Shown here: piece by piece, positions 4,483 through 21,510 of the stretch
Layout: every line of letters starts with the position of its first letter
Numbering within the stretch: position 1 is the first letter of the stretch
Source: Maribacter flavus
GTDB lineage: Bacteria > Bacteroidota > Bacteroidia > Flavobacteriales > Flavobacteriaceae
Direction: 5' to 3'
Length of the DNA: 64,000 nt
Assembly: GCF_008386635.1 (NCBI RefSeq)
Contig: NZ_VUOE01000001.1
Coordinates: 2,223,857-2,287,856, forward strand
Notes under the pieces: model-generated
Told to the model about the DNA's origin: nothing
Seen by the model: the letters and a program-made list of their open reading frames with translations, nothing else
Database searches by the model: none
Program-made: the position numbers and the translations under genes

Positions 4483-4504
4483 TTGAGTGCAAATTGAGTG
4501 CAAA
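4483..4504 (+). repeat. Tandem 11-bp direct repeat TTGAGTGCAAA x2
   Basis: Two contiguous perfect copies of TTGAGTGCAAA lie immediately before the recombinase ATG (4524). The position between the putative attachment core and the integrase gene fits arm-type binding sites or an autoregulatory site; this is inference. The second copy includes a TTG in frame with the recombinase, which is not favoured as the start. Confidence 0.7.
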
Positions 4505-4523
4505 TTTTTCATGTCTTCAATTT

Positions 4524-5720
4524 ATGAAGACTAATAAAACCCTCTCAATTGATACTAGACGAAAAAGAAAGGATGGATTATTTCCAATTATTTTTAGACT
4601 GAGCCATTATCGAAAAACAATTACTATTTCTACAGGATTTGCCGTTCCCCCTGAATATTGGAATGAGAAAAAACGAGAGGAAAAAGGAACATATGAGGGA
4701 GTATCTTCTATTACTCGTTTGAACAATATGCAGACAAAAAAGAAAACCGAACTGAGGGACGGTATTAATCTATTAGAAGAAAACATTCAGTTGGAAGGTT
4801 TGGGAATTTCTGATTTGAAGCGCATACTTACCAAAACGACCAAGAAGATTTCCTTTTTTGAATATACACAAGAACTCATAGATGAAATAGAGGAAGCCCA
4901 AAAATTTGGAAATGCTAGGGCCTATAAAAGCGTATTGGGCGCTTTAAGAAATTTTCATAGAAAGAAAAGTTTGCGTTTTGAAGATGTAAATTATTCATTT
5001 CTCAAAAAATTTCAAATCGCCCTGCTTAAAAAGGAAAATAGCATCAATGGATTATCTATGTTCATGCGTACCATCAGGGCTATATATAACAAAGCCATTC
5101 GTCAGGAAATTGTATCGGCAGACAGTTATCCATTTAGGAAGTACAATATAAAAACCGAACCAACGGCAAAAAGAGCCATTAGCAAGGATAAAATCAAACG
5201 TATTCTTGATTTGGAGCTTAAGCCGGACACTCCATTAATTCACGCAAAAGCCTATTTTATATGTTCATACTTGATGAACGGCATTTCATTTATAGACATA
5301 GCATTTCTAAAAATGGAAAATGTTATTGACGCACGAATCCAATATAAAAGGCAAAAAACAGCCAAGCCTTATGTTGTTAAAATAACCAATCAACTTTCCT
5401 CTATTCTTGAATACTATCTTGAAGGAAAAAAGAAATCTGACTTCATTTTCCCAAAAATACGAATGGAGAGCCTACAGAATCAATATTATGACGTGCAATG
5501 GGAACGAAAACTGTACAATAAACGGTTGAAAGAAATTGCCGAGCTATGTGATATCGAAGAAAAACTAACAAGTTATGTTAGTCGACATTCTATGGCAACT
5601 AATCTTATTTTGAACGATGTGCCAATCAACGCGCTAAGTAAAATGCTTGGACATAGTAAATTACAGACCACGGAGATTTATATTAAGAATTTACCCGCCC
5701 ATATTATGGATATGTATTAG
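4524..5720 (+). CDS. Tyrosine recombinase/integrase (Bacteroidetes type)
   Basis: Site-specific recombinase of 398 residues from ATG 4524. An upstream in-frame TTG at 4494 falls inside a tandem repeat and is less likely. Order: N-terminal arm-binding domain (to about 85, with the typical ISTGFAVPPEYWNEKKRE stretch), SAM-like core-binding domain (about 105-210), catalytic domain. In the C-terminal part SRHSMAT supplies His and Arg, GHSKLQTTEIYIK the late His and the Tyr nucleophile. The first catalytic Arg, often in RGMSF-D in this family, appears as Asn in MNGISFIDIA, so activity is uncertain. It probably inserted the island that follows. Confidence 0.85.
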   Translation: MKTNKTLSIDTRRKRKDGLFPIIFRLSHYRKTITISTGFAVPPEYWNEKKREEKGTYEGVSSITRLNNMQTKKKTELRDGINLLEENIQLEGLGISDLKRILTKTTKKISFFEYTQELIDEIEEAQKFGNARAYKSVLGALRNFHRKKSLRFEDVNYSFLKKFQIALLKKENSINGLSMFMRTIRAIYNKAIRQEIVSADSYPFRKYNIKTEPTAKRAISKDKIKRILDLELKPDTPLIHAKAYFICSYLMNGISFIDIAFLKMENVIDARIQYKRQKTAKPYVVKITNQLSSILEYYLEGKKKSDFIFPKIRMESLQNQYYDVQWERKLYNKRLKEIAELCDIEEKLTSYVSRHSMATNLILNDVPINALSKMLGHSKLQTTEIYIKNLPAHIMDMY

Positions 5721-6190: not shown

Positions 6191-7093
6191 TTGATGAGAA
6201 TAAGATTATTGACTTTCGTAATGGCTCTTGGATGGAGTTGCAATGCTCTATCCCAACTTCCTATACAAACCTTGGAAAAGAGTATAAAACCACTTTATAA
6301 AATGGTGGATACATCATTGCAAAATAATCTAGAATATGAGCTTACCAAAAATAAGGATTGGGCACAACTCATCGATTCAAAAAAAATGGCGGTTGGTATC
6401 GTTGACCTAAGTAATCCTGAAGATATACGATTTGCCAGGGTCAATGGTACCCATATGATGTACGCGGCGAGCTTGCCAAAGATTGCCATATTATTGGCTT
6501 CAATGGACGCCATTGAAAAAGGGGAATTGAAGGAAACTATCGAAGTTAAAAAAGATATGCGCCTGATGATCAGTAAATCTGATAATGCGGCCTCTACCCG
6601 AATGATTGACCGTTTGGGTTATGACAAAATCGAAGAGGTTATGACGGATTCCAAATATGCCTTTTATGACGAGGAGACTGGAGGCGGTCTCTGGGTAGGA
6701 AAGCGTTATGGCGGCGGCGGTGATACGCATCGTGAACCGTTAAAGAACTTAAGCCACGCCGCGTCAGTATCACAAGTATGCCGGTTCTACTATCTTTTGG
6801 CCCACGGTAAATTAGTCAATGAAAGACGTTCAAAACAGATGCTCGACATTATGGAAAACCCTGAACTGCACCACAAGTTTGTCAATACATTAGATCAGAT
6901 TGCACCAAATGCCAGACTTTTCCGAAAGTCAGGTTCTTGGAAAACCTACCACTCCGATTCTATTTTGGTTTGGGGCAAGGACCCTGAAAGGCGTTATATA
7001 TTAGTTGCCTTGATTGACGACGCTAATGGGGAACAGATTATTCGAGACTTGGTCAAACCTGTGGAGAAAGTATTGAAAAAGCCCGTTCTTTGA
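6191..7093 (+). CDS. Class-A beta-lactamase-like periplasmic serine hydrolase (paralogue of 12360)
   Basis: Exported serine hydrolase, 300 residues, with a signal peptide (about 1-21, ending NALSQ). The penicilloyl-serine fold motifs are all present: SxxK as Ser94-Leu-Pro-Lys97, SDN at 130-132, KSG at 246-248. The omega-loop motif ExxLN that supplies Glu166 in true class A beta-lactamases is not visible; the stretch there is Gly-rich (GGLWVGKRYGGGG). It is therefore more likely a peptidoglycan- or peptide-directed hydrolase or DD-peptidase than a resistance enzyme. The transporter starts 30 bp downstream. The segment around SxxK (AVGIVDLSNP...) aligns with the serine hydrolase at 12360, so the two genes are paralogues. 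Substrate unknown. Confidence 0.8.
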   Translation: MMRIRLLTFVMALGWSCNALSQLPIQTLEKSIKPLYKMVDTSLQNNLEYELTKNKDWAQLIDSKKMAVGIVDLSNPEDIRFARVNGTHMMYAASLPKIAILLASMDAIEKGELKETIEVKKDMRLMISKSDNAASTRMIDRLGYDKIEEVMTDSKYAFYDEETGGGLWVGKRYGGGGDTHREPLKNLSHAASVSQVCRFYYLLAHGKLVNERRSKQMLDIMENPELHHKFVNTLDQIAPNARLFRKSGSWKTYHSDSILVWGKDPERRYILVALIDDANGEQIIRDLVKPVEKVLKKPVL

Positions 7094-7123
7094 TAAAGTC
7101 GAACAAGTAACCAACATTTACGA

Positions 7124-9922
7124 ATGGTCCAAAAATTTATTTCGGACTTCTTTGATATTCGCAGGGGGGAATTGCGGATTTCTATTTTTATGTTCTGCTA
7201 CATATTTATCGTTGTAGCGGTACTTTTAGTACTAAAACCAACGGTAAGTGCACTTTTCCTTTCAGAACTTGGTCCAGAGCAGCTCCCATTCGGTTATCTA
7301 TTGGTTGCCATAGGTGCCATTCTGAGTTCGTTTTGGTACTCGCAATTACTTTCAAAATTTAGACTAAAAACTATCATTCGATACACACTTGTTTTTTCAA
7401 GTTTGGTGTTGATTTCAGCAGGAATTTTTGTGTTTTTGGATATTTTAAAAGGATGGATGCTTTACATCGTCTATACCTGGGTAGCCATTTATGGAGTTTT
7501 GGCGGCCTCCCAATTTTGGGTATTGGCAAACTTGGTTTTCAATGTGAGGGACGCCAAAAGGTTGTTTGGATTTATCGGTTCTGGAGCCATCATGGGCGGC
7601 CTTTTTGGCGGTTACCTGACTTCGTTATTGGCCCCATGGTTTGGAAATGGTACCATGATGCTCCTAGCGGCCTTTTTACTACTTCTGTTGCTCCCACTAC
7701 TACAAAGAATCTGGAGCTTTCGCGTCACGAAATTAAATGAATTCAAAAAGAGCAAAACGTATCCGACAATCTCGGAAAAACCTTTTCAGCTGGTGAAAAA
7801 GGAACCACATTTAAGAAATCTTGCCATGCTTGTGGGTATAAGCGTTTTGGTCGCCAAACTAGTGGATTACTTGTTCAGCGATTATGCCGCCGATGCCATT
7901 TCCGACCCCGATGAACTGTCCTCTTTTTTTGGGTTTTGGTTCTCGACCTTTAATCTGGTCTCTTTAGCGTTACAGTTATTTCTAACACAGCGTATTGTTG
8001 GTGTTTGGGGAGTTGGTTTTTCCCTACTATTGTTACCATTGGGGATCTTGCTTGGCAGCATATTTTTCCTTTTTCTGCCAGAGCTTTCAGCGGTTGTTGT
8101 CATTAAGGCTATGGACGGTGCTCTAAAACAATCGATAAACAAAAGTGCTTTTGAATTGCTGGCATTACCACTACCCTTTGAAATAAAAAATAGGACCAAA
8201 TCATTCATTGATGTCGTCATCGATAGTTTGGCCACCGGTATTGCGGGAATTTTATTGGTGTTTTTGATAAAAGGTTTTGAGTGGCAAAGCTATCAGGTCA
8301 CTTGGTTGGTTATCGCATTGGTGTTACTATGGGCCTATTTCATCTTTAGAGTCCGCAAAACTTATTATGAAACCTTCAGGGCCAACTTGAGGGGACAAAC
8401 CAACGAAGAATTGGCAGCTCCTGTGGTCAAGCAGGTTTCCGTTTTGAAAGGTATGCGCAAGGTCTTTTCCGAAGGAAATGAAAATCAAATCCTTTTTATG
8501 CTGGATAAGCTGATGGAAATTAATGATAAACGTTTCGCCCCCGATGTTCGAAATCTCTTGGACCATCCTTCCAATAAGGTAAAGACATCGGCTATCAAAA
8601 ATCTTTATTATTTGGATAGTGTATCCATGCCGTGGAACATGAACGAATTACTTTCTATCGGTGATGAGGATTTGAACCTGGCGGCTATGGATTTTTTGCT
8701 GTTGCACTCAAGAAACGAACCTGAGGCCATATTTTCATACTATCTTGACCATAAGGATAAAAATATCGCTGGTGCAGCACTTTTTTCTTTGGCTAGGGAG
8801 TCTATAAACAACCAAAGGATGCGAAACCGATATCATTTGGAAAAGCGTATTCAAAAAGCTGTGGAAGAATCGGATAAAAATTTGTCTCCTTATTTAATAA
8901 AGACCATAGGTATAGCCGGGTTGACAAAATTCCACTCCCTACTCACCCAAATCTTGAATGGCCATAATGTGGATTTACAGATGGAAGCCATCGAAGCAAT
9001 GGGGTTAAGCATGGAATCATCTTTTGTTCCCCATTTAGTGGAATTGCTTCCAAAAAAAATCTATCGAGGACCAGTAATAGCTTCCCTAAGGAATTATGGA
9101 CTTGGAGTAATGCCAGTTTTGGTATGGATGGTAAAAGAACAAAAGGTAAGCTTGGAAGCGCGTAGGTTCATACCAAGGGTTATTGAAACGTTTGGCAACC
9201 AAGAATCCATACAGTATCTATTTCAATTGTTCAATGACGTAGATCTTAGCGTTCGATTGGAAAGTATCCGTTCACTAAGTAACCTGCGTTCATCGCATCC
9301 TGAAATAAAGTTCAACCGTTTTGAAGTGGCTTCCAAGATTTATGAAGAGTGTAAACTTTTTCACCAGACCCTCAACGCGATGCATACCCAAATTATAATC
9401 TCTTACCGAAATCGTAAAAGGCCCCGGCAAGAAGTTCAGCAAAAGGAACGGGATGCCAGAACTTCACTTTTAGAATTGTTGGAACGGCGTCTGGATGCTG
9501 GTTTGGAGCGTATTTTTAAGTTATTGGGGCTTAAATATGCCCAAGAGGATATCCTATTGGCCTTTGAAAGATTGACAAGTAATGAAGAAGAGCTTCGATC
9601 CACTGCCATTGATTTTTTGGACAATCTGTTGACCGGAAGCCTCAAACAGCAGCTTTTTCCAATCATTGAAGAAGTAATGAGGGATTTTTCTTCCGAAGAG
9701 TCTATTCAGCGCATCAAACCAAAAATCCCCTCTGAAAAGGAATGTTTTAAACTGCTTTTGAATATGCCCGATTTAAAGGTGAAGTTGGCAGTACTTTATC
9801 TTATTGGAAAACAAGGTGATAAAAAATATTTGCCTATTTTGGAGCCTTTGTCAAAACAAGACGATTTAAAAATCAGGACTTTTGCGTTGAATGCCATTTC
9901 AGAGATAAATGCAGAAAACTAA
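7124..9922 (+). CDS. NTT (Npt1/Npt2, ATP/ADP translocase-like) transporter fused to HEAT repeats
   Basis: 932 residues. The first ~430 form a polytopic membrane domain with family signatures: an early LKPTVSALFLSELGP helix end and QFWVLANLVFNVRDAKRLFG followed by a Gly-rich GSGAIMGGLFGG helix. Residues from about 440 to the end are soluble helical repeats of HEAT type (for example DVRNLLDHPSNKVKTSAIKN and the last PILEPLSKQDDLKIRTFALN). Characterised NTT proteins exchange ATP, ADP or other nucleotides across membranes; substrate and direction here are unknown. Its stop overlaps the start of the PBP gene by 14 bp. Next to a secreted ATP-grasp enzyme, export of ATP to the periplasm is an attractive role, but inferred. 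Confidence 0.8.
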   Translation: MVQKFISDFFDIRRGELRISIFMFCYIFIVVAVLLVLKPTVSALFLSELGPEQLPFGYLLVAIGAILSSFWYSQLLSKFRLKTIIRYTLVFSSLVLISAGIFVFLDILKGWMLYIVYTWVAIYGVLAASQFWVLANLVFNVRDAKRLFGFIGSGAIMGGLFGGYLTSLLAPWFGNGTMMLLAAFLLLLLLPLLQRIWSFRVTKLNEFKKSKTYPTISEKPFQLVKKEPHLRNLAMLVGISVLVAKLVDYLFSDYAADAISDPDELSSFFGFWFSTFNLVSLALQLFLTQRIVGVWGVGFSLLLLPLGILLGSIFFLFLPELSAVVVIKAMDGALKQSINKSAFELLALPLPFEIKNRTKSFIDVVIDSLATGIAGILLVFLIKGFEWQSYQVTWLVIALVLLWAYFIFRVRKTYYETFRANLRGQTNEELAAPVVKQVSVLKGMRKVFSEGNENQILFMLDKLMEINDKRFAPDVRNLLDHPSNKVKTSAIKNLYYLDSVSMPWNMNELLSIGDEDLNLAAMDFLLLHSRNEPEAIFSYYLDHKDKNIAGAALFSLARESINNQRMRNRYHLEKRIQKAVEESDKNLSPYLIKTIGIAGLTKFHSLLTQILNGHNVDLQMEAIEAMGLSMESSFVPHLVELLPKKIYRGPVIASLRNYGLGVMPVLVWMVKEQKVSLEARRFIPRVIETFGNQESIQYLFQLFNDVDLSVRLESIRSLSNLRSSHPEIKFNRFEVASKIYEECKLFHQTLNAMHTQIIISYRNRKRPRQEVQQKERDARTSLLELLERRLDAGLERIFKLLGLKYAQEDILLAFERLTSNEEELRSTAIDFLDNLLTGSLKQQLFPIIEEVMRDFSSEESIQRIKPKIPSEKECFKLLLNMPDLKVKLAVLYLIGKQGDKKYLPILEPLSKQDDLKIRTFALNAISEINAEN

Positions 9923-12338
9923 TCTTTTGCAGCGAATGAAGGAACGGGTGGAACATATCATCCACAGATTAATGATTCAGGTCATAATTTTGTTGCGAAA
10001 ATCCAAAAAATTAATTTTAAGTTCCCTAGGATTTATTATAAAGCACCCCATCAAATTTACCCTATACCTTTTTATATCTTGCCTTGGCGCTGTATTGTCA
10101 TTTTTTCTGTTAACCTATTTTGGCGCATTTGGCCATATCCCTACAAAACAAGAACTGAAAGCACTTCAGAATCCAGTAACTTCTACTATTTATGGTAAAG
10201 ACGAACAGCCGATAGGTGTATTTTTTTTTCAAAATAGGTCGAATATTGAGCAAGTCGAGCTAACAAATGAAATCATCAATGCCTTAGTAGCAACTGAGGA
10301 CGTCCGTTTTTTCTCCCATGGCGGCATCGATTATAGAAGCTACGCCCGGGTTCTGATCAAGTCGGTTTTGCTAGGTCAAGATGCAGGGGGCGGCAGTACC
10401 ATAACCCAACAGATTGCGAAGAATTTGTTCGGACGTAAAAAACAAAGGTTTTTGACCACTCCGATCAATAAGATGAGAGAGATCATAATTGCAAAACGAC
10501 TGGAGTCTATTTATACCAAGGATGAATTGGTATTGCTTTATTTCAACACGGTTTCTTTTGGTGAGAATCTATATGGCCTGGAAAAGGCGGCGCATCGGTT
10601 TTTCAATAAATCTACAACAGATCTTGATCTTTCGGAGAGTGCCACTTTGGTAGGTCTTTTAAAGGCACCAACGTTCTACAACCCAAGGAATCATCCCGAG
10701 AGAGCCGAAAAAAGAAGAAATATCGTTCTTGAGCAAATGATTAAATATGGTTATATCGACGATAGTTTAGCCAATTTGGCCAAAAAACCCCTAGCACTTA
10801 ATTATCAGCCGCCTGTAAAACAATCCTCTTTTGCATCGTACTATAAAGAATTTATACGCCGAGAATTTAATAAATGGGCACTTGAAAATCCAAAAAGTAA
10901 CGGTGGACAGTACGATGTAGAGTTGGATGGTCTAAAAATATATACCACGCTCAATCCCAATATACAGAGATACCTTGAAAATGCCATGACCCGACAAATG
11001 AAACGGTTGCAGGCCGATATGGATAGGGCTTGGACCAGTGCCACAGTTGAAGGGGGTAAAGAGGGTTTGGTAAAACGACTATTGGCCGACCATCCGCAGG
11101 TAAAAAAATTAAGGCAGCAGGGGAAGACCGAGGCTGAGTTGGATGAATTTGTAAATTCAATTCAAAATCGAAAGTACTGGGAGCTTGGCTTGGGATGGGT
11201 CGACGTGGACCAATCTTTAAAAGATTCCATAATCAAGACGGTGACCAGATTGCATACGGGTATTTTGGCCTTGAACAGCGGGAGCGGCGAGATTATGGGC
11301 TATCTCGGGGGTATTGATTACGGCTTTTCGCAAAAAGACCATATTCAAGAACCGAAACAAGTGGGGTCGGTTTTTAAGCCCATTACTTATCTCGCTGCCC
11401 TGAACTCCCACGAAAATGCCTGTACGTTCTACGACAACATTTTAAGAAAATACTCCAAGTTTGAAGATTGGACACCAAGGAACGCAGACCACAGGTATGG
11501 GGGTAGTTATAGCATGCATGGCGCATTGGCAAATTCAATCAATACCGTTTCGGTCGAACTTCAGTTGAAAACGGGTAACCAAAATGTCATTGCGCTGGCC
11601 AAAAAAATGGGAATCGATACTGAAATACCAGATGTACCATCTATTGTTTTGGGTACGGCCGAAATTTCACTTTTTGAAATGGTTAAAGCCTATGCCTCCA
11701 TATCAAATGGGGGGCGTTCGGTTACGCCCTATATCATTGAACGAATAGAACAGGAAGATGGTACGGTCCTTTTTACCGCAGATAAAAAAAATATAGGGAA
11801 TCGGGTTTCCGCAACGGAAAATGTAAAAACGCTACAAAAAATGATGCTCGAGGTTACCCAAGAGGGCACGGGGAAAGGTTTTCAGGCATACGGGGTACCC
11901 TTTAACATAATCGGGAAAACAGGAACCACCCAGAACAACTCCGATGGTTGGTTCATTGGATGCTCACCGGAACTTGTAATCGGTTCTTGGGTGGGTACCT
12001 TGGACAAAAGGGTACAAATGGGCTATGGTTCCGGAGCAAGAACGGCCATGCCCATGGTCGCTTCCGTGTTTAGGAGTCTTAGTAGTTGGAAAAGACCCAT
12101 GCTAACGAACTTTGAGTTTGATCAGGAACATTTTGGTTGCCCCTCGTACTCTGAGTTGGATGCAGCTTCTGCCATGGCACATTATTCTACGGATTCTGTT
12201 TATTTAAAAGAACTTTTTATAAAAGATTCGATTATTCAAGATTCAATCAATCGGAAGGTTTTCTTCGACAGTATACGTGGTCCGATAATTCAGCCGGACA
12301 GTCTAAAGCTGGAAACAATTGGCTCGGAACAGTTATAA
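9909..12338 (+). CDS. Class A penicillin-binding protein (PBP1a type): GT51 transglycosylase plus transpeptidase
   Basis: Bifunctional peptidoglycan synthase, 809 residues. Membrane anchor at about 48-75. GT51 domain about 85-270, with catalytic Glu130 in ATEDVRFFSHGG and the GGSTITQQIAKNLF motif. Transpeptidase motifs: nucleophile Ser487 in GSVFK, SIN at 543-545, KTG at 670-672. All catalytic residues are present. It starts 14 bp inside the transporter gene, so translation is probably coupled, and lies 22 bp from the end of the convergent serine hydrolase. Its co-location with two serine hydrolases and a secreted dikinase suggests a specialised wall-remodelling role in addition to, or instead of, housekeeping synthesis. 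Confidence 0.93.
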   Translation: MQKTNLLQRMKERVEHIIHRLMIQVIILLRKSKKLILSSLGFIIKHPIKFTLYLFISCLGAVLSFFLLTYFGAFGHIPTKQELKALQNPVTSTIYGKDEQPIGVFFFQNRSNIEQVELTNEIINALVATEDVRFFSHGGIDYRSYARVLIKSVLLGQDAGGGSTITQQIAKNLFGRKKQRFLTTPINKMREIIIAKRLESIYTKDELVLLYFNTVSFGENLYGLEKAAHRFFNKSTTDLDLSESATLVGLLKAPTFYNPRNHPERAEKRRNIVLEQMIKYGYIDDSLANLAKKPLALNYQPPVKQSSFASYYKEFIRREFNKWALENPKSNGGQYDVELDGLKIYTTLNPNIQRYLENAMTRQMKRLQADMDRAWTSATVEGGKEGLVKRLLADHPQVKKLRQQGKTEAELDEFVNSIQNRKYWELGLGWVDVDQSLKDSIIKTVTRLHTGILALNSGSGEIMGYLGGIDYGFSQKDHIQEPKQVGSVFKPITYLAALNSHENACTFYDNILRKYSKFEDWTPRNADHRYGGSYSMHGALANSINTVSVELQLKTGNQNVIALAKKMGIDTEIPDVPSIVLGTAEISLFEMVKAYASISNGGRSVTPYIIERIEQEDGTVLFTADKKNIGNRVSATENVKTLQKMMLEVTQEGTGKGFQAYGVPFNIIGKTGTTQNNSDGWFIGCSPELVIGSWVGTLDKRVQMGYGSGARTAMPMVASVFRSLSSWKRPMLTNFEFDQEHFGCPSYSELDAASAMAHYSTDSVYLKELFIKDSIIQDSINRKVFFDSIRGPIIQPDSLKLETIGSEQL

Positions 12339-12359
12339 ATGTACCAATAGCTGAACGAA

Positions 12360-13619
12360 CTACCCTTTACGTATCGCCCTATCTATTAAATTGGCCAAAT
12401 ACATATGATCTGAAGCCGAATTCTTCCTTAGCACATTGCTCATCAAGGCGACTATATATTTACAATTATCGGGATGTTCGACGATGATTATCGAGTTCAT
12501 GTAATTCATTACATTGCCCATGTATTTACCACATTCCTCTCCTTTGCTTCGATCGCATTTGTACAGGCTGCCCGACTTAAAATATACCGCAGCTTCTTTT
12601 AAAGACGGTGATTGTGCATATCGAATACGCCTATCGGTCATATACATCAACCGCTTCATTTCAAGACTTGATGCCTCATCAATCACTTTGCCCTGTTCCA
12701 ACTGGACCAAAAATTTCATCAATCCTAATGGGGTGCCAATACTGCCCCCTTTGTCACCAACATAAGTATTGGCCCCTCCGGTAAAAAAACTGCCCAGACG
12801 CCATTCTTCATGGGTGATACCCAATTGCCGTAAAGGAAGGTTGACAATATCATTTGCCATATCGGTCAATAGCTTTTTTGGGGTTTCCTTAAAATAGGCA
12901 TCAGCCTCCTCCTTGGTCAATTCCGGATATTTTTCGCAAAAGACAGACATCAACAAGGCCTCACGCCAAACGATACTTGCCGCACCATTATTACTGACCG
13001 AAAGCATGTGATCCGCCCATTCAAAAAGCGAAAAGACATCACTGGCGATGACCTGCCTTTTAATTAAGGTATTTTTCTCAATATTGAATATAGGTACGGT
13101 GTGTTCGTCGGTAAGGCCCCAAACCCCTGCCTTTACAGATTTATTTTTTAGGAGCTCAATTCGCTGCTCAAAGGAGTCAGGGTATATCTTGGACAATTGA
13201 TGGAAAAGGGCATTCAAAACTGCCAACTTACCAACACTTCCCGGTTGGTAGCCCAAGGTTTCATTTCGCTGTGCGTAACGTGTACTGTCAGGGTTCGAAA
13301 TATCAAGCACTGCAATGGAATAGCTTCTGTCAAGTCCGCGAAACATTCCACCTATTTCCCTTTGGAGTCCATGATCGACATGAAAAAATGTTTCCAGGCT
13401 ATCATCTTTTCTTGAGGCCAGGTTCAACGAAATAGCTTCCCAGGATTTTAAAGCTCCCAACGGGAGGGCTGTCGCATCTTTTAGTTCACCACTTTGAATG
13501 AGTTCCAACCGTTTTAACCGTTTTATGCCGGTTCGTTCGTAGCCGTCAATAGGATAGGGCGTTATAGCAAAGGCCATCACTAGAAAACTAATCGATATTA
13601 AAACAAGTATTTTTTTCAT
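12360..13619 (-). CDS. Class-A beta-lactamase-like periplasmic serine hydrolase (paralogue of 6191)
   Basis: Exported 419-residue serine hydrolase with an N-terminal signal (about 1-18). Active-site motifs: Ser128-Val-Gly-Lys131, SNN at 209-211, KSG at 348-350. No omega-loop ExxLN is visible. It is longer than its paralogue through an N-terminal ~80-residue extension and insertions around 225-270 and 330-345, plus a Cys-containing loop after KSG. The shared block LDISNPDSTRYAQRN / VDLSNPEDIRFARVN marks the relationship to 6191. Its ATG overlaps the stop of the dikinase gene (ATGA), so the two are translationally coupled. Substrate unknown. Confidence 0.78.
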   Translation of the reverse strand: MKKILVLISISFLVMAFAITPYPIDGYERTGIKRLKRLELIQSGELKDATALPLGALKSWEAISLNLASRKDDSLETFFHVDHGLQREIGGMFRGLDRSYSIAVLDISNPDSTRYAQRNETLGYQPGSVGKLAVLNALFHQLSKIYPDSFEQRIELLKNKSVKAGVWGLTDEHTVPIFNIEKNTLIKRQVIASDVFSLFEWADHMLSVSNNGAASIVWREALLMSVFCEKYPELTKEEADAYFKETPKKLLTDMANDIVNLPLRQLGITHEEWRLGSFFTGGANTYVGDKGGSIGTPLGLMKFLVQLEQGKVIDEASSLEMKRLMYMTDRRIRYAQSPSLKEAAVYFKSGSLYKCDRSKGEECGKYMGNVMNYMNSIIIVEHPDNCKYIVALMSNVLRKNSASDHMYLANLIDRAIRKG

Positions 13620-16528
13620 GGCCGGGGATTTTTTGTAACAGGTATCATTTTGTTCAAGTCCACTTTTGGGGTAATCGATTCCAAGTAATCCGAGCTCAGG
13701 GCCTTTTTATTTTCTACAAAGGGACGAATTTGAAACAACCACAATTTATCATCCTTAAAACCAAGTTCTACATCATATGCCCCCAGATAATCGGATTTGG
13801 TTTCCTTTGGAATGCGTTCTTGAATTGTTTTGGCCATGCTACGAATATCTTTGAGATTTTTGGAGTTGAGCACGGGCGTTTCAAAAGTGGTACTTTTTTT
13901 TAGCGTTCCCCCAGTTTTGGGCAAGCTGTTGTAATCCGGTTCTCGGGCAGGAGCCAGCAACATATTTTGACCGTTTTCCTTCAAAAGGTATTGTTCGGCA
14001 GCCTGCCCATCCACCGCACCACCTGCGCCACGGCTAAAGGCAATGGTCAAATCATTTTCGTTGCCCGAAACGATTCCCTTGGTAATCAAAACTCCAGAAT
14101 AATCTACATCGACACTGGGAATCACCAAAATGGAAGGGAAGACATTTTCTGGGTTCAACAAATACTTTTGTCTCCATTTGAAGCTGCGCTCTGTATACGG
14201 GGAAGCCCAGACGGCACGAACGCCATCCAAAATCTTTTCCTCCTCGACCACGTTGAAAAGGGTAAGGTTGAGTCCTGCCCCGGTAAAATCCTTTAAATCT
14301 TCCATATTCGTATCGCTCCGTAGAAAAACCGGAACCTCACCTATATCTGAACCAAGAACATTTTTAAATCCCAACTTCAAGGCTTCTACAAATTTTGTTT
14401 TAAGAGGCATTGTCTTGATTGATTCGCGAAGTATTTCCAACTGGCGTAATTGGTAGTTTTCCACCTCTTTTTCTCCCATGGAGTTTGAACGCATTCGGTC
14501 CGCCTCAATGAACACATTATTCAGAAAAGTCCAGTAACTCACGGTTTGCCCAGACATAGTCTGATCCATATGTTCCCTAAAAATCCCGAAGGGAATGACC
14601 AACCCTTCGACCACATAATCTGGAAACATTTTTTTCAACTGTCCCAAATTTGCTGCCTTAGGGCCGCATAGTTTCCCTGAGTCATCGGCATTTACGCTTC
14701 GCATATCCAAAACTCCCTTTTCATCCAAACGAATTTGACCTACGGGCACTTCGATCCGTTCATCCTTTCGCTCTTTTTTCGTAAAGAGGTTTATTTCAAT
14801 TTCGCTCATTTGCGCTTCGGGTTTTAATATCACATTTCCTTTGTTAGAAACTGCGAAGAACACCCGTTGCCCGTCATACTTTTTCAGTTGTTGTAGGTTT
14901 TCATCGGATAGGGCCGCATTCGGAATTGCCAAATTGCGGGCAAGCAACTGAACGTGCGAGACCATATTTCCTTCCGCGACCGTTGCAATTCCCGCAACTG
15001 GCTTCAAGTCGGAAGGGGGGCTTTGAAACACATAGATTTTATCCGAAGATACTTCGATATCTTCTGAACTGCCTCCGATTACGACCAATTCTCCAAAAGC
15101 ATAGCCAGGATTTAATCCCCGAACGGTACTTTGGTTGGAAACGTCCATAACCTGATTGGTCAATGAGGATTCCGAAGCAATAAAACTACCAAGCTCACCC
15201 ACGGCATTACCCAAGTGTAAAGCTACGGAACCCCTGATTTTATCATCGATAAAACCGGACGCCATGGGCTCAAATCCTACGTAGGTTTCGACAACATCAT
15301 CATAATTGGCCTTTACCATGCTGGCACTCCACTCCACCCCACTTCGCGCTTGTTGCAGGGTTTCGGTCAATTCGGCCAATGAAAGGGATTCCGATTCGTA
15401 GTTTGAAAGATAGCCCTGCAGCTGATTCCATTCCCATATCTCCAAAAATCCCGCACCAGCGGAAGCCATACCTAAGTGACATATTTTTTCCAAGAGGGAT
15501 TGTAAGCTATCGGTTTCCCAATTCAATGCATTTTTAAAGACCAAACCTTCCAGTTTTAGTGAAACATCCAAAAGTTCCAAGCGAACTTGTGAATCTGTCT
15601 CCAATAAAATTCCCTCTCTAAGTTTTAACAATAAATCGGATGCCTCACGAATCAATTCGGTCGGATTATTGACTAGATTACCATTGTTCGCGAATTGGTT
15701 GAGGAAAGTTTCCAGTTCTGAATTCTGAAGGTTACCAATTTTTTTGGTAAGAGAGCCCAAATCAATAGGCCTGTGAAACTCACGCATGGTAGAAAGCAAT
15801 TCCCTAAATTGAGCGTTCAAGGTACCTGTCAATTTATCTTGATGTTTAATTATGAACCGCTCCACTTTTTGAATATCGGAAGGTTCAGGGCGTCCATGAA
15901 TTTTGATGCGAAGTTCCATAAAGGGGACATATTCATCTGACAACACCTTTGATTCACTTCGCATTTTTTGAGCGATATTACTATCGCCATTGTGAGGCAC
16001 ATCCTTTAATGATTGTCGAATCAAAAAGAATTTTTTCTCTAGACTTTCATCATCTTTTAATAAATCTTTATAGAAATCAATTCCCCAAGTCTCTTCGTCT
16101 TCTGATTGAACGGCACCCCTGTAATACTGTCCTTTTTGCAGAATCCAGCCATCATCGACACCTTTAAGGTATTGCTCCAACTGATATTGTTTTAATCGGG
16201 CATGGTCATTTTCAGCATCCCAAAAATCCTTTGGGTCTGTGTAGGCAAGAATTTGACCTAAATAAATATGGTTTGACTTGCCCAACTCCACAACATCATC
16301 ACGATATCTGGCATGTTGCCAGCCTGGGCCTATTTCATCAGGGCAGGGATCCTTCGGCTGGCGAATGCTCCCATCGGTACAGAACCAACGGATATCTTTA
16401 TAGGGACCACGAATGTCTTGCTTTAGTTTTGAAATTAGCTCTGAAATTCCCTTATTGTCCTTTATTTGAGCTAGGATAGAACTTTGCCAAAAAAAGCACG
16501 TTAAAAAAAATAAAACATATTTTTTCAA
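13616..16528 (-). CDS. Secreted dikinase-like enzyme (phosphohistidine domain then PPDK-type ATP-grasp)
   Basis: 970 residues starting with a clear signal peptide (MKKYVLFFLT... ending SSILAQ, cleavage about 21). Residues 22-470 are a mostly helical region I do not recognise. About 470-575 is the PEP-utiliser swivelling domain, catalytic His525 in NMVSHVQLLARN. About 618-955 is the PPDK/PEP-synthase ATP-grasp domain: GPKAANLGQL, IPFGIF, FLRSDTNMEDL (735-745), VWASPYTERSFKWRQ, and the closing LWLFQIRPF. PEP synthase and rifampicin phosphotransferase place ATP-grasp first; phosphohistidine-then-ATP-grasp is the order of alpha-glucan water dikinases. The predicted reaction is ATP-dependent phosphorylation through phospho-His of an unknown, probably extracytoplasmic glycan-like acceptor. 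It forms a coupled pair with the serine hydrolase 12360. Confidence 0.72.
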   Translation of the reverse strand: MKKYVLFFLTCFFWQSSILAQIKDNKGISELISKLKQDIRGPYKDIRWFCTDGSIRQPKDPCPDEIGPGWQHARYRDDVVELGKSNHIYLGQILAYTDPKDFWDAENDHARLKQYQLEQYLKGVDDGWILQKGQYYRGAVQSEDEETWGIDFYKDLLKDDESLEKKFFLIRQSLKDVPHNGDSNIAQKMRSESKVLSDEYVPFMELRIKIHGRPEPSDIQKVERFIIKHQDKLTGTLNAQFRELLSTMREFHRPIDLGSLTKKIGNLQNSELETFLNQFANNGNLVNNPTELIREASDLLLKLREGILLETDSQVRLELLDVSLKLEGLVFKNALNWETDSLQSLLEKICHLGMASAGAGFLEIWEWNQLQGYLSNYESESLSLAELTETLQQARSGVEWSASMVKANYDDVVETYVGFEPMASGFIDDKIRGSVALHLGNAVGELGSFIASESSLTNQVMDVSNQSTVRGLNPGYAFGELVVIGGSSEDIEVSSDKIYVFQSPPSDLKPVAGIATVAEGNMVSHVQLLARNLAIPNAALSDENLQQLKKYDGQRVFFAVSNKGNVILKPEAQMSEIEINLFTKKERKDERIEVPVGQIRLDEKGVLDMRSVNADDSGKLCGPKAANLGQLKKMFPDYVVEGLVIPFGIFREHMDQTMSGQTVSYWTFLNNVFIEADRMRSNSMGEKEVENYQLRQLEILRESIKTMPLKTKFVEALKLGFKNVLGSDIGEVPVFLRSDTNMEDLKDFTGAGLNLTLFNVVEEEKILDGVRAVWASPYTERSFKWRQKYLLNPENVFPSILVIPSVDVDYSGVLITKGIVSGNENDLTIAFSRGAGGAVDGQAAEQYLLKENGQNMLLAPAREPDYNSLPKTGGTLKKSTTFETPVLNSKNLKDIRSMAKTIQERIPKETKSDYLGAYDVELGFKDDKLWLFQIRPFVENKKALSSDYLESITPKVDLNKMIPVTKNPRP

Positions 16529-16803: not shown

Positions 16804-16820
16804 GTGATCGCGACACGATT
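16804..16820 (-). repeat. Exact 17-bp copy of the tRNA-Arg 3' end
   Basis: gtgatcgcgacacgatt here is identical to 16952-16968, the terminal part of the intact tRNA-Arg, in the same orientation and 148 bp away. Only the acceptor 3' strand and half of the T-arm are present, so it is not a gene. It is probably a remnant of an earlier integration or excision at this tRNA. Confidence 0.75.
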
Positions 16821-16918
16821 GCATTCAAAGTTGCCAATACAAAACCTAGCAGCTACCGCTGCGGGCCCTTATTTTTGTCCGAACTGGCAACAAGGTTTGC
16901 ATTTCTCCTAAAAATAAA

Positions 16919-16942: not shown

Positions 16943-16952
16943 TCGAGTGTAG

Positions 16953-17026
16953 TGATCGCGACACGATTCGAACGTGTGACCGTCTGCTTAGAAGGCAGAT
17001 GCTCTATCCAGCTGAGCTACGCGACC
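16953..17026 (-). tRNA. tRNA-Arg (anticodon TCT)
   Basis: A 74-nt cloverleaf on the minus strand. The acceptor GGTCGCG pairs with CGCGATC (one G-T), the D-arm is GCTC/GAGC, the anticodon stem TCTGC/GCAGA encloses loop CTTCTAA, and the T-arm ACACG/CGTGT encloses TTCGAAT. The discriminator is A; CCA is not encoded. Its 3' end is the apparent target of the island to its left. Confidence 0.96.
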
Positions 17027-17654: not shown

Positions 17655-17706
17655 AATGGATTTTTTTTTGTAGATTTAGACCGGATTGATGAACCAAGTA
17701 AACATC

Positions 17707-18813
17707 ATGTCGATACAATTCAAAACATTTATTTTAGAAGACAGCACCTATAAAGGTGGCAGCAAGAAAATTGTAATGCCCCAAGGTATTGAAGTCCATA
17801 AATTGTCCTCCAACGAAAATCCACTGGGGTATTCGCCAAAGGTGAGACAAGCCCTCATGGCTTCGCTTGATGATTTGAGCCAATATCCGGACAATACGGA
17901 TATTCGTTTGCGCCAGGCCTTGGTAAAGGATTTTGACCAAGCACTTTCTGAAGATCATTTTATAACGACGAACAGCGGTTCGGAAATTATCGACCTAATT
18001 TCAAAGGCCTTTCTTGGGGAAGGGGATACCGTCATTGTGAGTCAGCCGTGCTTTCTACCCTATACTGCGTTTACAAGGTGGATGGGAGCAACGGCAATCA
18101 ATGTACCTATGACCACGAATTTTGAATATGATTTTGAGGGTATTTTGAAGGCTATTTCCGATAGTACCAAATTGGTCTTTTTGGCTTCGCCCAACAATCC
18201 CTCAGGAACCTATATTCCAAAAGACGTTTTAGAGGATTTTATGAACAAAGTTCCGGAACATGTAATCGTGGTTCTGGATGAGGTGTATCGGCATTTTGCC
18301 GATGCCCCGGATTATGTGACAGGGCTTCCCTTTGTAAAACAGAACAAAAATATCATCGCGATCAACAGTTTTTCCAAGACCTACGGGTTGGCCGGACTTC
18401 GTATAGGGTATTGCTATGCACCGTTACACATCAGCAGTTACATCCGAAAAATATGTAAACCTTTTTTATTGTCCACCTTGGCCTTGGAAGGGGCTATAGC
18501 CGCATTAGAAGATGGGGAATTCGTACAAGAGACCGTGGATTTGGTTCGAAAGGAACGAGCTTTTGTGTTGCATGGATTGAAGGAATTACATATTAAATAT
18601 TGGCCCACCCAGGGAAACTTTGTCATGATCCAGCCGCCAATATCGGACACCGAGTTGGTAAAACAGATGGAACAAAAAGGAATTATGGTACGGCCTGTGG
18701 GTAATTTTGGTGCCCCTGGTAAAGTCCGTATCTCATTCGGTACCCGGGCGGCAAATAACGCTATGTTGGATGCCTTGGAAGCGGTCATCAAACAAAAAGA
18801 AGTAACAACGTAA
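17707..18813 (+). CDS. Class I/II PLP aminotransferase (HisC-like; probable aromatic amino acid transaminase)
   Basis: About 369 residues from ATG 17707; an ATG at 17689 in the same frame is an alternative. PLP-fold landmarks: SSNENPLGYSP, the substrate/PLP loop TTNSGSEIIDL, ASPNNPSGTY, LDEVYRHF, and the Schiff-base Lys in NSFSKTYGLAGLRIGY. The overall pattern is that of histidinol-phosphate aminotransferase relatives, but its place as first gene before HPPD suggests that it converts tyrosine to 4-hydroxyphenylpyruvate. It could instead be a true hisC paralogue; no other his genes are nearby. Confidence 0.85.
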   Translation: MSIQFKTFILEDSTYKGGSKKIVMPQGIEVHKLSSNENPLGYSPKVRQALMASLDDLSQYPDNTDIRLRQALVKDFDQALSEDHFITTNSGSEIIDLISKAFLGEGDTVIVSQPCFLPYTAFTRWMGATAINVPMTTNFEYDFEGILKAISDSTKLVFLASPNNPSGTYIPKDVLEDFMNKVPEHVIVVLDEVYRHFADAPDYVTGLPFVKQNKNIIAINSFSKTYGLAGLRIGYCYAPLHISSYIRKICKPFLLSTLALEGAIAALEDGEFVQETVDLVRKERAFVLHGLKELHIKYWPTQGNFVMIQPPISDTELVKQMEQKGIMVRPVGNFGAPGKVRISFGTRAANNAMLDALEAVIKQKEVTT

Positions 18814-18859
18814 AAAATTTAGCAACTATGTTGCATTAATAACAATAAAATAGAAACAT

Positions 18860-19990
18860 ATGTCAACAACCATAGCAGCAGAGAAGAAGCAGGATAAAGC
18901 AACTGATTTTATGCCCATTAATGGCACGGATTATTTGGAACTCTATGTGAGCAACTCCAAACAAGCGGCCCATTTTTATAAAACCGCCTTCGGGTTCGAA
19001 TCCTTGGCCTACAAAGGCTTGGAGACCGGGAGTAGGGAGTTTGAGTCCTATGTCGTCCAACAGGACAAAATTCGGTTGGTATTAACATCCCCTTTAAAAA
19101 GTGGTACGGAAGTAGGTAAGCATATCGATAAACACGGCGATGGCGTTAAGGTAACTGCCCTTTGGGTAGATGATGCTACGTATGCTTATGAAGAGGCTGT
19201 GAAACGGGGCGCCAAAAGCTTTATGAAACCCCAAGTGGAGGAAGATGATCACGGAAAAGTGGTGCGTTCCGGAATTCACACCTACGGAGAGGTAGTCCAT
19301 ATCTTTGTGGAACGAAAGGATTATAACGGGGTCTTTTTGCCCGGATATCGGAAATGGGAATCAGACTATAAGCCAGAGTCCGCCGGACTCAAATTTGTGG
19401 ACCACATGGTAGGAAATGTGGAAGAGGGAAAAATGAACTATTGGGTGAAGTTCTACGAGGATGTCATGGGCTTCAAACAGATTCTTTCCTTTGATGATAA
19501 GGATATTTCTACAGAATACACGGCCCTCATGAGCAAGGTGATGAGTAACGGTAACGGGCGTATCAAATTCCCTATTAACGAACCGGCTCCCGGAAAGAAA
19601 AAATCCCAAGTGGACGAATATCTCGAATTTTACGAAGGCGAAGGGGTACAGCATATAGCTGTAGCTACGGACGATATCGTGAAAACGGTATCCGACCTTA
19701 AAAGCAGGGGGGTGGAATTTTTGACCGTTCCCACCACCTATTATGATGTGCTAACCGAAAGGGTGGGTAAAATAGACGAGGATATAGATTCCCTGCGAAA
19801 ACTGGGAATTTTGGTGGATCGTGACGATGAAGGTTATTTGTTACAGATTTTCACCAAAACGGTACAGGCAAGGCCCACCATGTTCTTTGAAATCATTCAA
19901 AGAAAAGGAGCTACTTCCTTTGGAAAAGGAAACTTTAAGGCATTGTTCGAGGCCATTGAGCGGGAGCAAGAGTTGAGGGGTACTTTGTAA
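18860..19990 (+). CDS. hppD: 4-hydroxyphenylpyruvate dioxygenase
   Basis: Non-haem Fe(II) dioxygenase turning 4-hydroxyphenylpyruvate into homogentisate (tyrosine catabolism, cytosol). 376 residues, two vicinal-oxygen-chelate modules. Iron ligands visible: His182 (FVDHMVGNV), His265 (GVQHIAVATDD), Glu344 (MFFEIIQRKG). The C-terminal segment GKGNFKALFEAIEREQ is the conserved HPPD tail. It follows the aminotransferase by 46 bp in the same operon. Confidence 0.96.
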   Translation: MSTTIAAEKKQDKATDFMPINGTDYLELYVSNSKQAAHFYKTAFGFESLAYKGLETGSREFESYVVQQDKIRLVLTSPLKSGTEVGKHIDKHGDGVKVTALWVDDATYAYEEAVKRGAKSFMKPQVEEDDHGKVVRSGIHTYGEVVHIFVERKDYNGVFLPGYRKWESDYKPESAGLKFVDHMVGNVEEGKMNYWVKFYEDVMGFKQILSFDDKDISTEYTALMSKVMSNGNGRIKFPINEPAPGKKKSQVDEYLEFYEGEGVQHIAVATDDIVKTVSDLKSRGVEFLTVPTTYYDVLTERVGKIDEDIDSLRKLGILVDRDDEGYLLQIFTKTVQARPTMFFEIIQRKGATSFGKGNFKALFEAIEREQELRGTL

Positions 19991-20349
19991 AACCAATGCT
20001 CGGGATAAAAGTATTGTGGTTGTAAGTGTGAAGGTCATAGTATAAAATTGTTCATTTTCTTTGCTTGTCCAAAGAAAACGAACCAAAACAAACGACACTT
20101 TTGAGTGGGATTTTTGACTTTAAGCAAGTCAAAAACCGCTCGCCAAACCCCGCGCCATGCCAATGCCTGGCTGAATTTCGGGGCTTTGGCATCGCTTATC
20201 CGGCGCAAAAGCCATACCGACTTCGTCGGCACAACATTCAGTACAAAGTGAATCGTGGTAAAGTCCTGATTTACGGCTTTTGCCGCTTTTATGCCACATG
20301 TACTAAAATGACTAACTTTAAAAGTAAGGAACAATTAAAATAAAATTCG
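19991..20349. other. Intergenic gap within the homogentisate operon, filled by a repeat-like element
   Basis: The 359-bp gap between HPPD and HmgA is unusual in an otherwise tightly packed operon. Overlapping frames of about 92 and 99 residues exist on both strands but encode low-complexity, unrecognisable peptides and look like chance frames of a repeat (see 20040-20330). Confidence 0.6.
20040..20330. repeat. Probable dispersed intergenic repeat element
   Basis: The stretch is GC-richer than flanking spacers. It contains a perfect 10-bp hairpin (TTTTTGACTT/AAGTCAAAAA, 20111-20135) and a GGCTTTTGG-type inverted segment. From memory, blocks beginning like 'ctttgcttgtccaaagaaaa' recur between genes in many Flavobacteriia genomes; no second copy is in this window, so it cannot be confirmed here. 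Confidence 0.5.
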
Positions 20350-21510
20350 ATGCCCATATATCATAAACAAGGAAACATACCCCCAAAACGGCACACGCAG
20401 TTCCGTAGGCCGGATGGGGAACTGTATTCGGAGCAATTGTTCGGCACCATAGGTTTTGATGGCATGTCCTCGCTGCTCTATCACCACAATAGGCCCACTA
20501 TGGTCAAGGAAATTGTAAAGAGCACGGATATGTCCCCAAAAATCGCCCTGGAAAAACACATTCGTTCGCTAAAATTGGTGAGTTTTAATGTGGAACCCAA
20601 GGACGACTTTCTGGAGGCACGGGAACCCCTATTGATCAATAATGATGTGCATATAGGCGTAGCGGCGCCACGGAAATCCGTCACGGATTATTTCTATAAA
20701 AATGCCGATGCGGATGAAATGCTCTTCATCCACAAGGGTACGGGTACGTTGCGAACTATTTTTGGTAATATTCCCTTTGAATATGGCGATTATCTGATTA
20801 TTCCTAGAGGGGTGATCTATCAAATCGATTTTAATTCTGTGGACAACCGGATTTTTTACGCGGAGTCCTTCACGCCCATTTACACCCCGAAAAGGTATAG
20901 AAATTGGTTCGGGCAGTTGTTGGAACATTCCCCGTACTGTGAGCGGGACTATAAACTCCCCCAAGATTTGGAAACCTTCACGGATCTGGATGACCATCTC
21001 ATGAAGGTCAAAAAACAGGGAACGCTGCATGAAATGATATACAAAGGGCATCCTTTTGATGTCGTGGGTTGGGACGGTTACAATTATCCCTACGGATTTT
21101 CAATCCATAATTTTGAACCGATTACCGGGAGGATACACCAACCGCCACCGGTACATCAGACCTTTGAGACATCGGCGTTTGTAATTTGTTCCTTTGTGCC
21201 CAGACTGTACGATTATCATCCAAAATCCATTCCGGCTCCCTACAACCATTCCAACATAGATTCCGATGAGGTACTGTACTATGTGGACGGTGATTTTATG
21301 AGCCGTAACGGAGTGGCCCCGGGCAATATTTCCTTACATCCTGCCGGTATCCCCCACGGTCCACATCCGGGTGCCGTGGAGCGAAGTATCGGCCAGAAAG
21401 GCTCCGAAGAATTGGCAGTTATGATAGATACCTTTAAACCCTTGATGGTTACGGAAAACGCCCTAAAATTGGATGATGGGGACTACTATCGTTCTTGGTT
21501 GAATTCGTAA
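20350..21510 (+). CDS. hmgA: Homogentisate 1,2-dioxygenase
   Basis: Ring-cleaving cupin dioxygenase giving maleylacetoacetate. 386 residues, the shorter bacterial form. Likely iron ligands: His300 (PAPYNH), Glu307 (SDEVLYY) and His336 (HPAGIPHGPHPG), in the expected spacing. The N-terminal jelly roll carries FIHKGTGTLRTIFG and YLIIPRGVIY. It lies 13 bp before the fumarylacetoacetase gene. Confidence 0.94.
   Translation: MPIYHKQGNIPPKRHTQFRRPDGELYSEQLFGTIGFDGMSSLLYHHNRPTMVKEIVKSTDMSPKIALEKHIRSLKLVSFNVEPKDDFLEAREPLLINNDVHIGVAAPRKSVTDYFYKNADADEMLFIHKGTGTLRTIFGNIPFEYGDYLIIPRGVIYQIDFNSVDNRIFYAESFTPIYTPKRYRNWFGQLLEHSPYCERDYKLPQDLETFTDLDDHLMKVKKQGTLHEMIYKGHPFDVVGWDGYNYPYGFSIHNFEPITGRIHQPPPVHQTFETSAFVICSFVPRLYDYHPKSIPAPYNHSNIDSDEVLYYVDGDFMSRNGVAPGNISLHPAGIPHGPHPGAVERSIGQKGSEELAVMIDTFKPLMVTENALKLDDGDYYRSWLNS

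Follow-up and report, generated by a model that had tools for sequence, protein, structure and literature searches.

An NTT-HEAT transporter, an exported dikinase and two serine hydrolases form a conserved gene set in marine bacteria: a candidate system for envelope phosphorylation with a nucleotide supply of its own

Between positions 6,191 and 16,528 of a 64,000-nucleotide stretch of the Maribacter flavus genome (contig NZ_VUOE01000001.1, positions 2,223,857 to 2,287,856; here called the window) lie five intact open reading frames. They encode a transporter of the NTT family that continues into HEAT repeats (NTT-HEAT), a predicted exported dikinase (DIK), two likewise exported serine hydrolases (SH1 and SH2) and a class A penicillin-binding protein (PBP), as listed in Table 1. 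A preliminary description of this DNA had placed five genes of these families here, which the reading frames and domain matches bear out, and recomputation returned the overlaps that it gave, 14 bp between the transporter and PBP genes and the 4-bp ATGA between DIK and SH2. The two gene sets are convergent, as described, and the gap between their 3' ends counts 21 bases (12339-12359) instead of 22.

Table 1. Features of the five-gene region in window coordinates, and related loci by locus label (L)
Feature	Position	Strand	Remarks
SH1	6191-7093	+	exported class-A-beta-lactamase-like serine hydrolase (predicted), PF13354; core gene; candidate starts TTG 6191, ATG 6194
NTT-HEAT transporter	7124-9922	+	PF03219 TLC domain, then HEAT repeats; core gene
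Membrane (NTT/TLC) domain of transporter	7124-8359	+	residues 1-412
HEAT-repeat domain of transporter	8411-9919	+	about residues 430-932
Class A PBP (transglycosylase and transpeptidase)	9909-12338	+	PF00912 and PF00905; accessory
SH2	12360-13619	-	exported serine hydrolase (predicted), divergent PF13354; core gene
DIK	13616-16528	-	exported dikinase (predicted), PF01326 PPDK_N; core gene
DIK N-terminal domain	15131-16465	-	residues 22-466; without recognised fold
DIK phosphohistidine (swivel) domain	14789-15121	-	about residues 470-580; His525
DIK ATP-grasp domain	13703-14725	-	residues 602-942
TerC loci	L063:8929-9867, L068:9264-10250, L071:8899-9840, L144:5697-6659
Sister clusters	L165, L166, L168, L169, L174, L175, L178, L179, L180		NTT-HEAT and/or HEAT-less NTT, Omp85-like protein and HipA-like lipoprotein

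SH1, the NTT-HEAT, SH2 and DIK are a conserved all-or-none set of neighbouring genes in marine bacteria. Each protein was used to search 120 genomes from 119 genera of the window's family, among them the genome of the window itself, with full length called above 1000 bits for DIK and above 600 bits for the NTT-HEAT. The preliminary description had expected the NTT-HEAT, the exported dikinase and the paired hydrolases to be linked in other genomes, and they are: all four were found at full length in the identical 22 genomes, or 21 of 119 when the window's own is left out, and they stand together in 21 of the 22, while the other 98 genomes hold none of them at full length. A further 13 genomes gave partial ATP-grasp matches to DIK (20-63 bits) and three more gave NTT matches of 18-75 bits. 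For one of the 21 the linkage is inferred across a contig end (G116, where the NTT contig opens with the end of SH2). Where DIK and the NTT share a contig they are 1.3-8.3 kb apart in 20 of 21 genomes, and in those 20 the pairs SH1-NTT and SH2-DIK are convergent; in G108 the NTT lies 2 Mb away and DIK, SH2 and SH1 remain together. Such conservation of the four-gene set implies that the arrangement is not a matter of chance, with the reservation that our Fisher values ignore shared ancestry.

In a wider sample of 395 genomes of the phylum, scoring was limited to the best two or three candidates in each genome, so that additional copies could have escaped notice (G487 included). DIK occurs in 13 of these genomes and the NTT-HEAT of the DIK-linked clade (above 700 bits, one split over two contigs) in 11, all of which have DIK. 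The NTT lies within the DIK cluster in 10 of the 13, with reversed orientation in G183, and about 147 kb from DIK in G295; SH2 adjoins DIK in 12, and the cluster includes SH1 in 11 (the cluster of G181 stops at a contig edge, and G295 shows neither). The co-occurrence might simply be that of an inherited linked cassette whose genes work separately, as adjacency makes joint gain and loss expected and the identities of DIK rise and fall with those of the NTT (Mantel r 0.62 over 23 loci), but the genes remain together across several families of the phylum and G108 and G295 keep both DIK and the NTT despite the distance, and we give this explanation little credence. The PBP, which the preliminary description had counted as a component, was found besides the window at just one of 39 fetched loci (L080, Maribacter arenosus) and was rejected as a core part. 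It is an accessory in this lineage; the peptidoglycan link that ran through it therefore falls, and the hydrolases alone do not prove one.

In DIK a signal peptide is followed by an N-terminal domain about 445 residues long, then by the swivelling domain with the phosphohistidine, and the ATP-grasp domain stands at the C-terminus. A simple measure of hydropathy indicates that the predicted export signal is conserved: the peak within the first 60 residues has a median of 2.83 in 38 homologues, compared with 0.73 for a control stretch taken from these proteins, and the one homologue with a low value probably has a miscalled start. The ATP-grasp catalytic residues and the swivel histidine are identical in 38 of 38 homologues, as are C50 and C62 of the N-terminal domain, and these catalytic residues, whose roles we take to be those of PPDK, equip DIK for dikinase chemistry of the PPDK or phosphoenolpyruvate (PEP) synthase type. 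The signal peptide and PPDK-type ATP-grasp domain that had been read from the window alone are thus upheld. DIK falls outside the PEP synthases and PPDKs themselves: PPDK_N is its sole domain above cut-off, the reading frame stops after the ATP-grasp domain and no PEP-binding barrel was found in it. In the glucan and phosphoglucan water dikinases of plants an acceptor-side region is followed by a phosphohistidine domain and a C-terminal ATP-grasp domain, and the order in DIK is like that of these alpha-glucan and phosphoglucan enzymes. Unlike them, DIK appears to be exported, a Pfam scan found no CBM match that would indicate a starch-binding module, and the GWD1_pHisD match stays below the cut-off (13.1 against 27 bits), which leaves DIK outside the glucan water dikinase family. 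Its closest named relatives are Flagellimonas/Muricauda and Maribacter proteins.

The two hydrolases carry the motifs SxxK, SxN and KSG/KTG, which are those of serine acyl-enzymes with the PBP/beta-lactamase fold: S94xxK97, S130xN132 and K246-S-G in SH1, and S128xxK131, S209xN211 and K348-S-G in SH2. Each of these residues is present in at least 95% of the sequences compared (34 for SH1, 37 for SH2). Simple hydropathy gives both a signal-type N-terminus. Since Pfam puts SH1 and SH2 in the beta-lactamase family, and rifampin phosphotransferase is the best fold match of the DIK ATP-grasp domain, the locus could be read as a drug inactivation set. However, rifampin phosphotransferase and PEP synthase have the ATP-grasp domain at the N-terminus, whereas it is C-terminal in DIK, and the rest of DIK matches neither the PEP barrel nor the rifampin enzyme. 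Whole-protein cut-offs are also far off (NCBIfam RIF_Ptrans_rph 51.9 against 999 bits for DIK; the class A beta-lactamase equivalog 14.4 against 200 bits for SH1 and no such match for SH2), and the set occurs in many genera with divergent sequence, unlike a recent cassette, the DIK homologues in one alignment being 50-68% identical to the window protein. We consider drug inactivation very improbable. An anti-phage system was rejected as well, the sole PADLOC match among the five proteins being a HEAT match at 15.1 bits.

The transporter belongs to the NTT/TLC family (PF03219, 39.5 bits against a cut-off of 21) and matches structure 9j3j chain E at 2.7e-8; simple hydropathy gives about 12 transmembrane segments, and its positive loops predict that both ends and the HEAT repeats lie in the cytosol. 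With an NTT domain followed by HEAT repeats it is an NTT-HEAT fusion. In the canonical NTT controls, PF03219 was found in 5 of 118 Bacteroidota and in none of 14 control genomes. According to the portions consulted of Major et al. (2017, PMC5381601), proteins of this build, PF03219 with C-terminal HEAT repeats, form a monophyletic, widespread and uncharacterised group whose function is called unknown and which is present in free-living bacteria including Bacteroidetes, as well as in Chlamydiae, cyanobacteria and oomycetes (43 NTT sequences in its Table 1). The term is used too in the part consulted of PMC6995639. The only genomic partner named in those portions of PMC5381601 is a cyclic-nucleotide-binding protein, unlike the situation here.

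We give an even chance to the proposal that SH1, the NTT-HEAT, SH2 and DIK constitute a single system that phosphorylates envelope material and has a nucleotide supply of its own. The NTT-HEAT would sit in the inner membrane, carrying a cytosolic nucleotide, most likely ATP, outwards and spent AMP or ADP together with phosphate inwards, and its HEAT domain would be the cytosolic docking or control part of the carrier. Periplasmic DIK would bind ATP in its C-terminal ATP-grasp domain, and His525 of the swivelling domain would take up the beta-phosphate and deliver it to an acceptor held by the N-terminal domain; a wall glycan as this acceptor is a guess. SH1 and SH2 might work on this envelope material through acyl-enzyme chemistry, either ahead of its phosphorylation or following it, whether by hydrolysis or by transfer of an acyl or peptidyl group. 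The preliminary interpretation, with ATP exported for a periplasmic dikinase that phosphorylates a glycan, is partly supported.

A second group of NTT-HEATs bears on the cargo. This sister clade (446-526 bits) was found in 10 of the 395 genomes; it is split in G503, and G315 also has DIK. It is accompanied by an Omp85-like protein and by a protein of 544-656 residues, a candidate lipoprotein kinase; the NTT loci were hand-picked from the phylum NTT search, and the kinase search covered all 395 genomes. A lipobox-like GC is present in 10 of 12 copies, and 11 copies have K167, D295, D297, R298, N302 and D319 in common, in the layout IK ... NDxDRRxxN ... D(F/M)G, with DMS in one copy. The profile of the lipoprotein aligns with HipA_2 over the stretch from the lysine to DRxxxN (HHalign 80%, pairwise E 1.4e-5; the control DIK profile gave 0.7%). 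With HipA-like kinases (PF20613) it shares the lysine, DRxxxN and the D of DFG, and it differs from them in its lipoprotein signal, its greater length and a score below the Pfam cut-off (HipA_2, 14.3 against 27 bits in one copy; seven other scanned copies had no match). A PDB search with the lipoprotein profile returned 0 matches. The clusters at L165, L166 and L174 add a calcineurin-like phosphoesterase lipoprotein.

The kinase motifs and the transporter go together. Twelve strong copies of the lipoprotein occur in 11 of the 395 genomes, namely all ten with the sister clade and G487, which has the DIK-linked NTT, and 11 of the 12 motif-bearing copies lie in a cluster with an NTT (at L166 one NTT is in two overlapping frames). 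Five weaker relatives were found, of which the four inspected (G311:C1:3150227 being the fifth) no longer have the lysine, the motif of the catalytic loop or the G of DFG; an NTT adjoins none of these four against 11 of the 12 (p 0.003, shared ancestry ignored), and two of their genomes, G315 and G503, have NTTs elsewhere. An NTT thus accompanies exported ATP-using enzymes of two unrelated folds, and this is our chief ground for still favouring ATP or a close nucleotide as the likely cargo. We suggest, at somewhat less than even odds, that Bacteroidota have a general periplasmic ATP supply in which NTT-type carriers export ATP to at least two unrelated exported phosphotransferases, predicted to be the DIK/SH1/SH2 system and the HipA-like lipoprotein kinase with its Omp85-like partner. 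The motif-less relatives at L212, L213, L214 and L215 look exported, and three of the four adjoin an Omp85-like gene; they are possible pseudokinases.

Several observations weigh against ATP export, among them the transporter's own residues. In the parts consulted of PMC4256464, PMC3306366 and likewise PMC10654386, K155, E245, E385 and K527 are the charged residues described for AtNTT1, and K527 mutants lost ATP binding wholly or nearly so (PMC3306366). In the window NTT, most of the charged residues typical of ATP/ADP exchangers have given way to others: E245 corresponds to A121, K527 to T371 and E385, conservatively, to D248, and K155 probably to G57, an assignment made by spacing alone and less sure. 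Of the three charged residues that can be aligned, one is retained in the NTT-HEATs of either clade (S, D and Q at E245, E385 and K527 in 10 of 10 sister proteins), so that the transporter lacks the residue set of ATP/ADP-exchanging NTTs, which speaks against plain ATP/ADP exchange. Only one NTT was shown in each of the 22 DIK genomes of the family sample, and hence no better ATP carrier stands in. Outward movement of ATP is our inference, the direction of transport not being readable from sequence, and the literature consulted gave no functional data for any NTT-HEAT. In the phylum sample G315 has only the sister clade, on another contig, without the DIK-linked one; G299 has DIK, SH1 and SH2 with a sole NTT that is HEAT-less (94 bits); and in Neolewinella antarctica (L083) only DIK and SH2, and no NTT-HEAT, were found within 10 kb. 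Comparison of the DIK N-terminal domain with known structures gave no informative match for the acceptor side, and the lipoprotein is a putative kinase by motifs and by a profile match below the Pfam cut-off. A third conserved NTT cluster (L183, L184 and L188) is kinase-free, with GlcNAc-2-epimerase-like, X25-domain and ankyrin/glyoxalase proteins as partners (Pfam on L188 only). The nucleotide supply of the preliminary description is therefore borne out indirectly, by a second NTT-HEAT clade tied to an unrelated exported kinase-motif lipoprotein, and the loss of most canonical residues speaks against it.

The sister genomes add a further point of this kind. All seven whole HEAT-less NTTs found there have D, D and K at E245, E385 and K527 and so retain all three charges; five are in kinase clusters (L167, L168, L169, L178 and L179) and two outside (L176 and L181), and a scan of three gave PF03219 matches at E 2.7e-20 to 1.4e-24. 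In part of these genomes the HEAT-less NTT could be the better candidate for the ATP carrier and the NTT-HEAT could have another role. An NTT stands without an adjoining kinase at L176, L177 and L181, the kinase being elsewhere in G402, G444 and G503, and the neighbourhoods at L170, L171 and L182 are outside the kinase pattern. It may be, then, that the four genes form one system in which the NTT-HEAT moves a product, a precursor or another phosphorylated compound while DIK uses extracellular ATP from lysis or from neighbours. This is what one would expect from the missing E245 and K527 in both clades, from the gene content of G299 and from the frequency of separate HEAT-less NTTs with ATP-type residues in the sister genomes, and some NTTs are known to carry NAD or other cargo (PMC5381601, in the portions consulted). 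It does not account for two NTT-HEAT clades tied to two unrelated exported ATP-using enzymes, for the four inspected motif-less relatives without an adjoining NTT, or for the five kinase clusters in which an NTT-HEAT is the only NTT (L165, L166 first copy, L174, L175 and L180), and we regard a non-ATP cargo as rather unlikely. A third possibility is nucleotide recovery, in which DIK would consume, in the periplasm, ATP from the environment and the NTT would import the leftover AMP or ADP, in keeping with the characterised NTTs, which in the same portions of PMC5381601 are importers in parasites and plastids. A dikinase would be an odd scavenger, however, since it spends the ATP on an acceptor, and the nucleotidase-type partners to be expected are not in the core set, so that recovery seems improbable.

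The closest functional parallel, in the portions consulted of PMC6113206 and PMC12267056, is SLC35B1/AXER, a carrier of cytosolic ATP to a compartment unable to make its own, as the NTT would be if the proposal is right; SLC35B1/AXER is eukaryotic, located in the endoplasmic reticulum and of a protein family unrelated to NTT. Among the literature matches listed, none was relevant to the export of dikinases or to a bacterial supply of ATP to the periplasm, and none described a system with this gene set. Each protein of the set belongs to or borders on a known superfamily. To our knowledge, periplasmic chemistry is thought to run without ATP, and the working rule is that no ATP-dependent enzyme functions outside the inner membrane. 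A general periplasmic ATP supply, if real, would overturn that rule and would be the bacterial counterpart of the ATP supply to the endoplasmic reticulum; it would also point to phosphorylated envelope components that have not yet been looked for. A dedicated ATP carrier with exported kinases would give the uncharacterised NTT-HEAT family its first functional lead, and the proposal is directly testable in culturable marine Flavobacteria.

Ten flanking genes were scanned, giving TerC twice, a propeller protein, a weak Ppx/GppA match, BrkB, an oxidoreductase, a sulfatase-modifying-factor-like protein, a glyoxalase, a sorting-tail protein and one gene without a match. No common substrate gene was found among the ten; TerC alone recurs, a TerC-family membrane protein lying inside or adjoining the DIK cluster at 4 of the 39 loci. 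TerC proteins provide exported enzymes with manganese, a function that would fit a dikinase outside the cytoplasm. More distant NTT relatives of 762-1100 residues adjoin varied genes, for example one with an HD domain (L187), and NTT-HEAT relatives of about 1050 residues adjoin a STAND-NTPase/WD40 protein (L190) and a TIR/DUF4062 protein (L189).

In the window, a tyrosine recombinase of the phage-integrase type (4494-5720) lies directly upstream of SH1. A repeat of the 3' end of the tRNA-Arg(tct) gene, matching at 17 of 18 bases, stands 130 bp downstream of the tRNA gene (16804-16821 and 16952-17026), an arrangement like that of an old integration site. At 17686-21510 come genes for an aminotransferase and for proteins like 4-hydroxyphenylpyruvate dioxygenase and homogentisate dioxygenase, an ordinary tyrosine breakdown region. 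A PEP-synthase-like frame of 802 residues (G000:C1:2219918-2220469) lies about 4 kb before the window and about 17 kb from DIK; it is a relative of ordinary length whose proximity is probably a coincidence.

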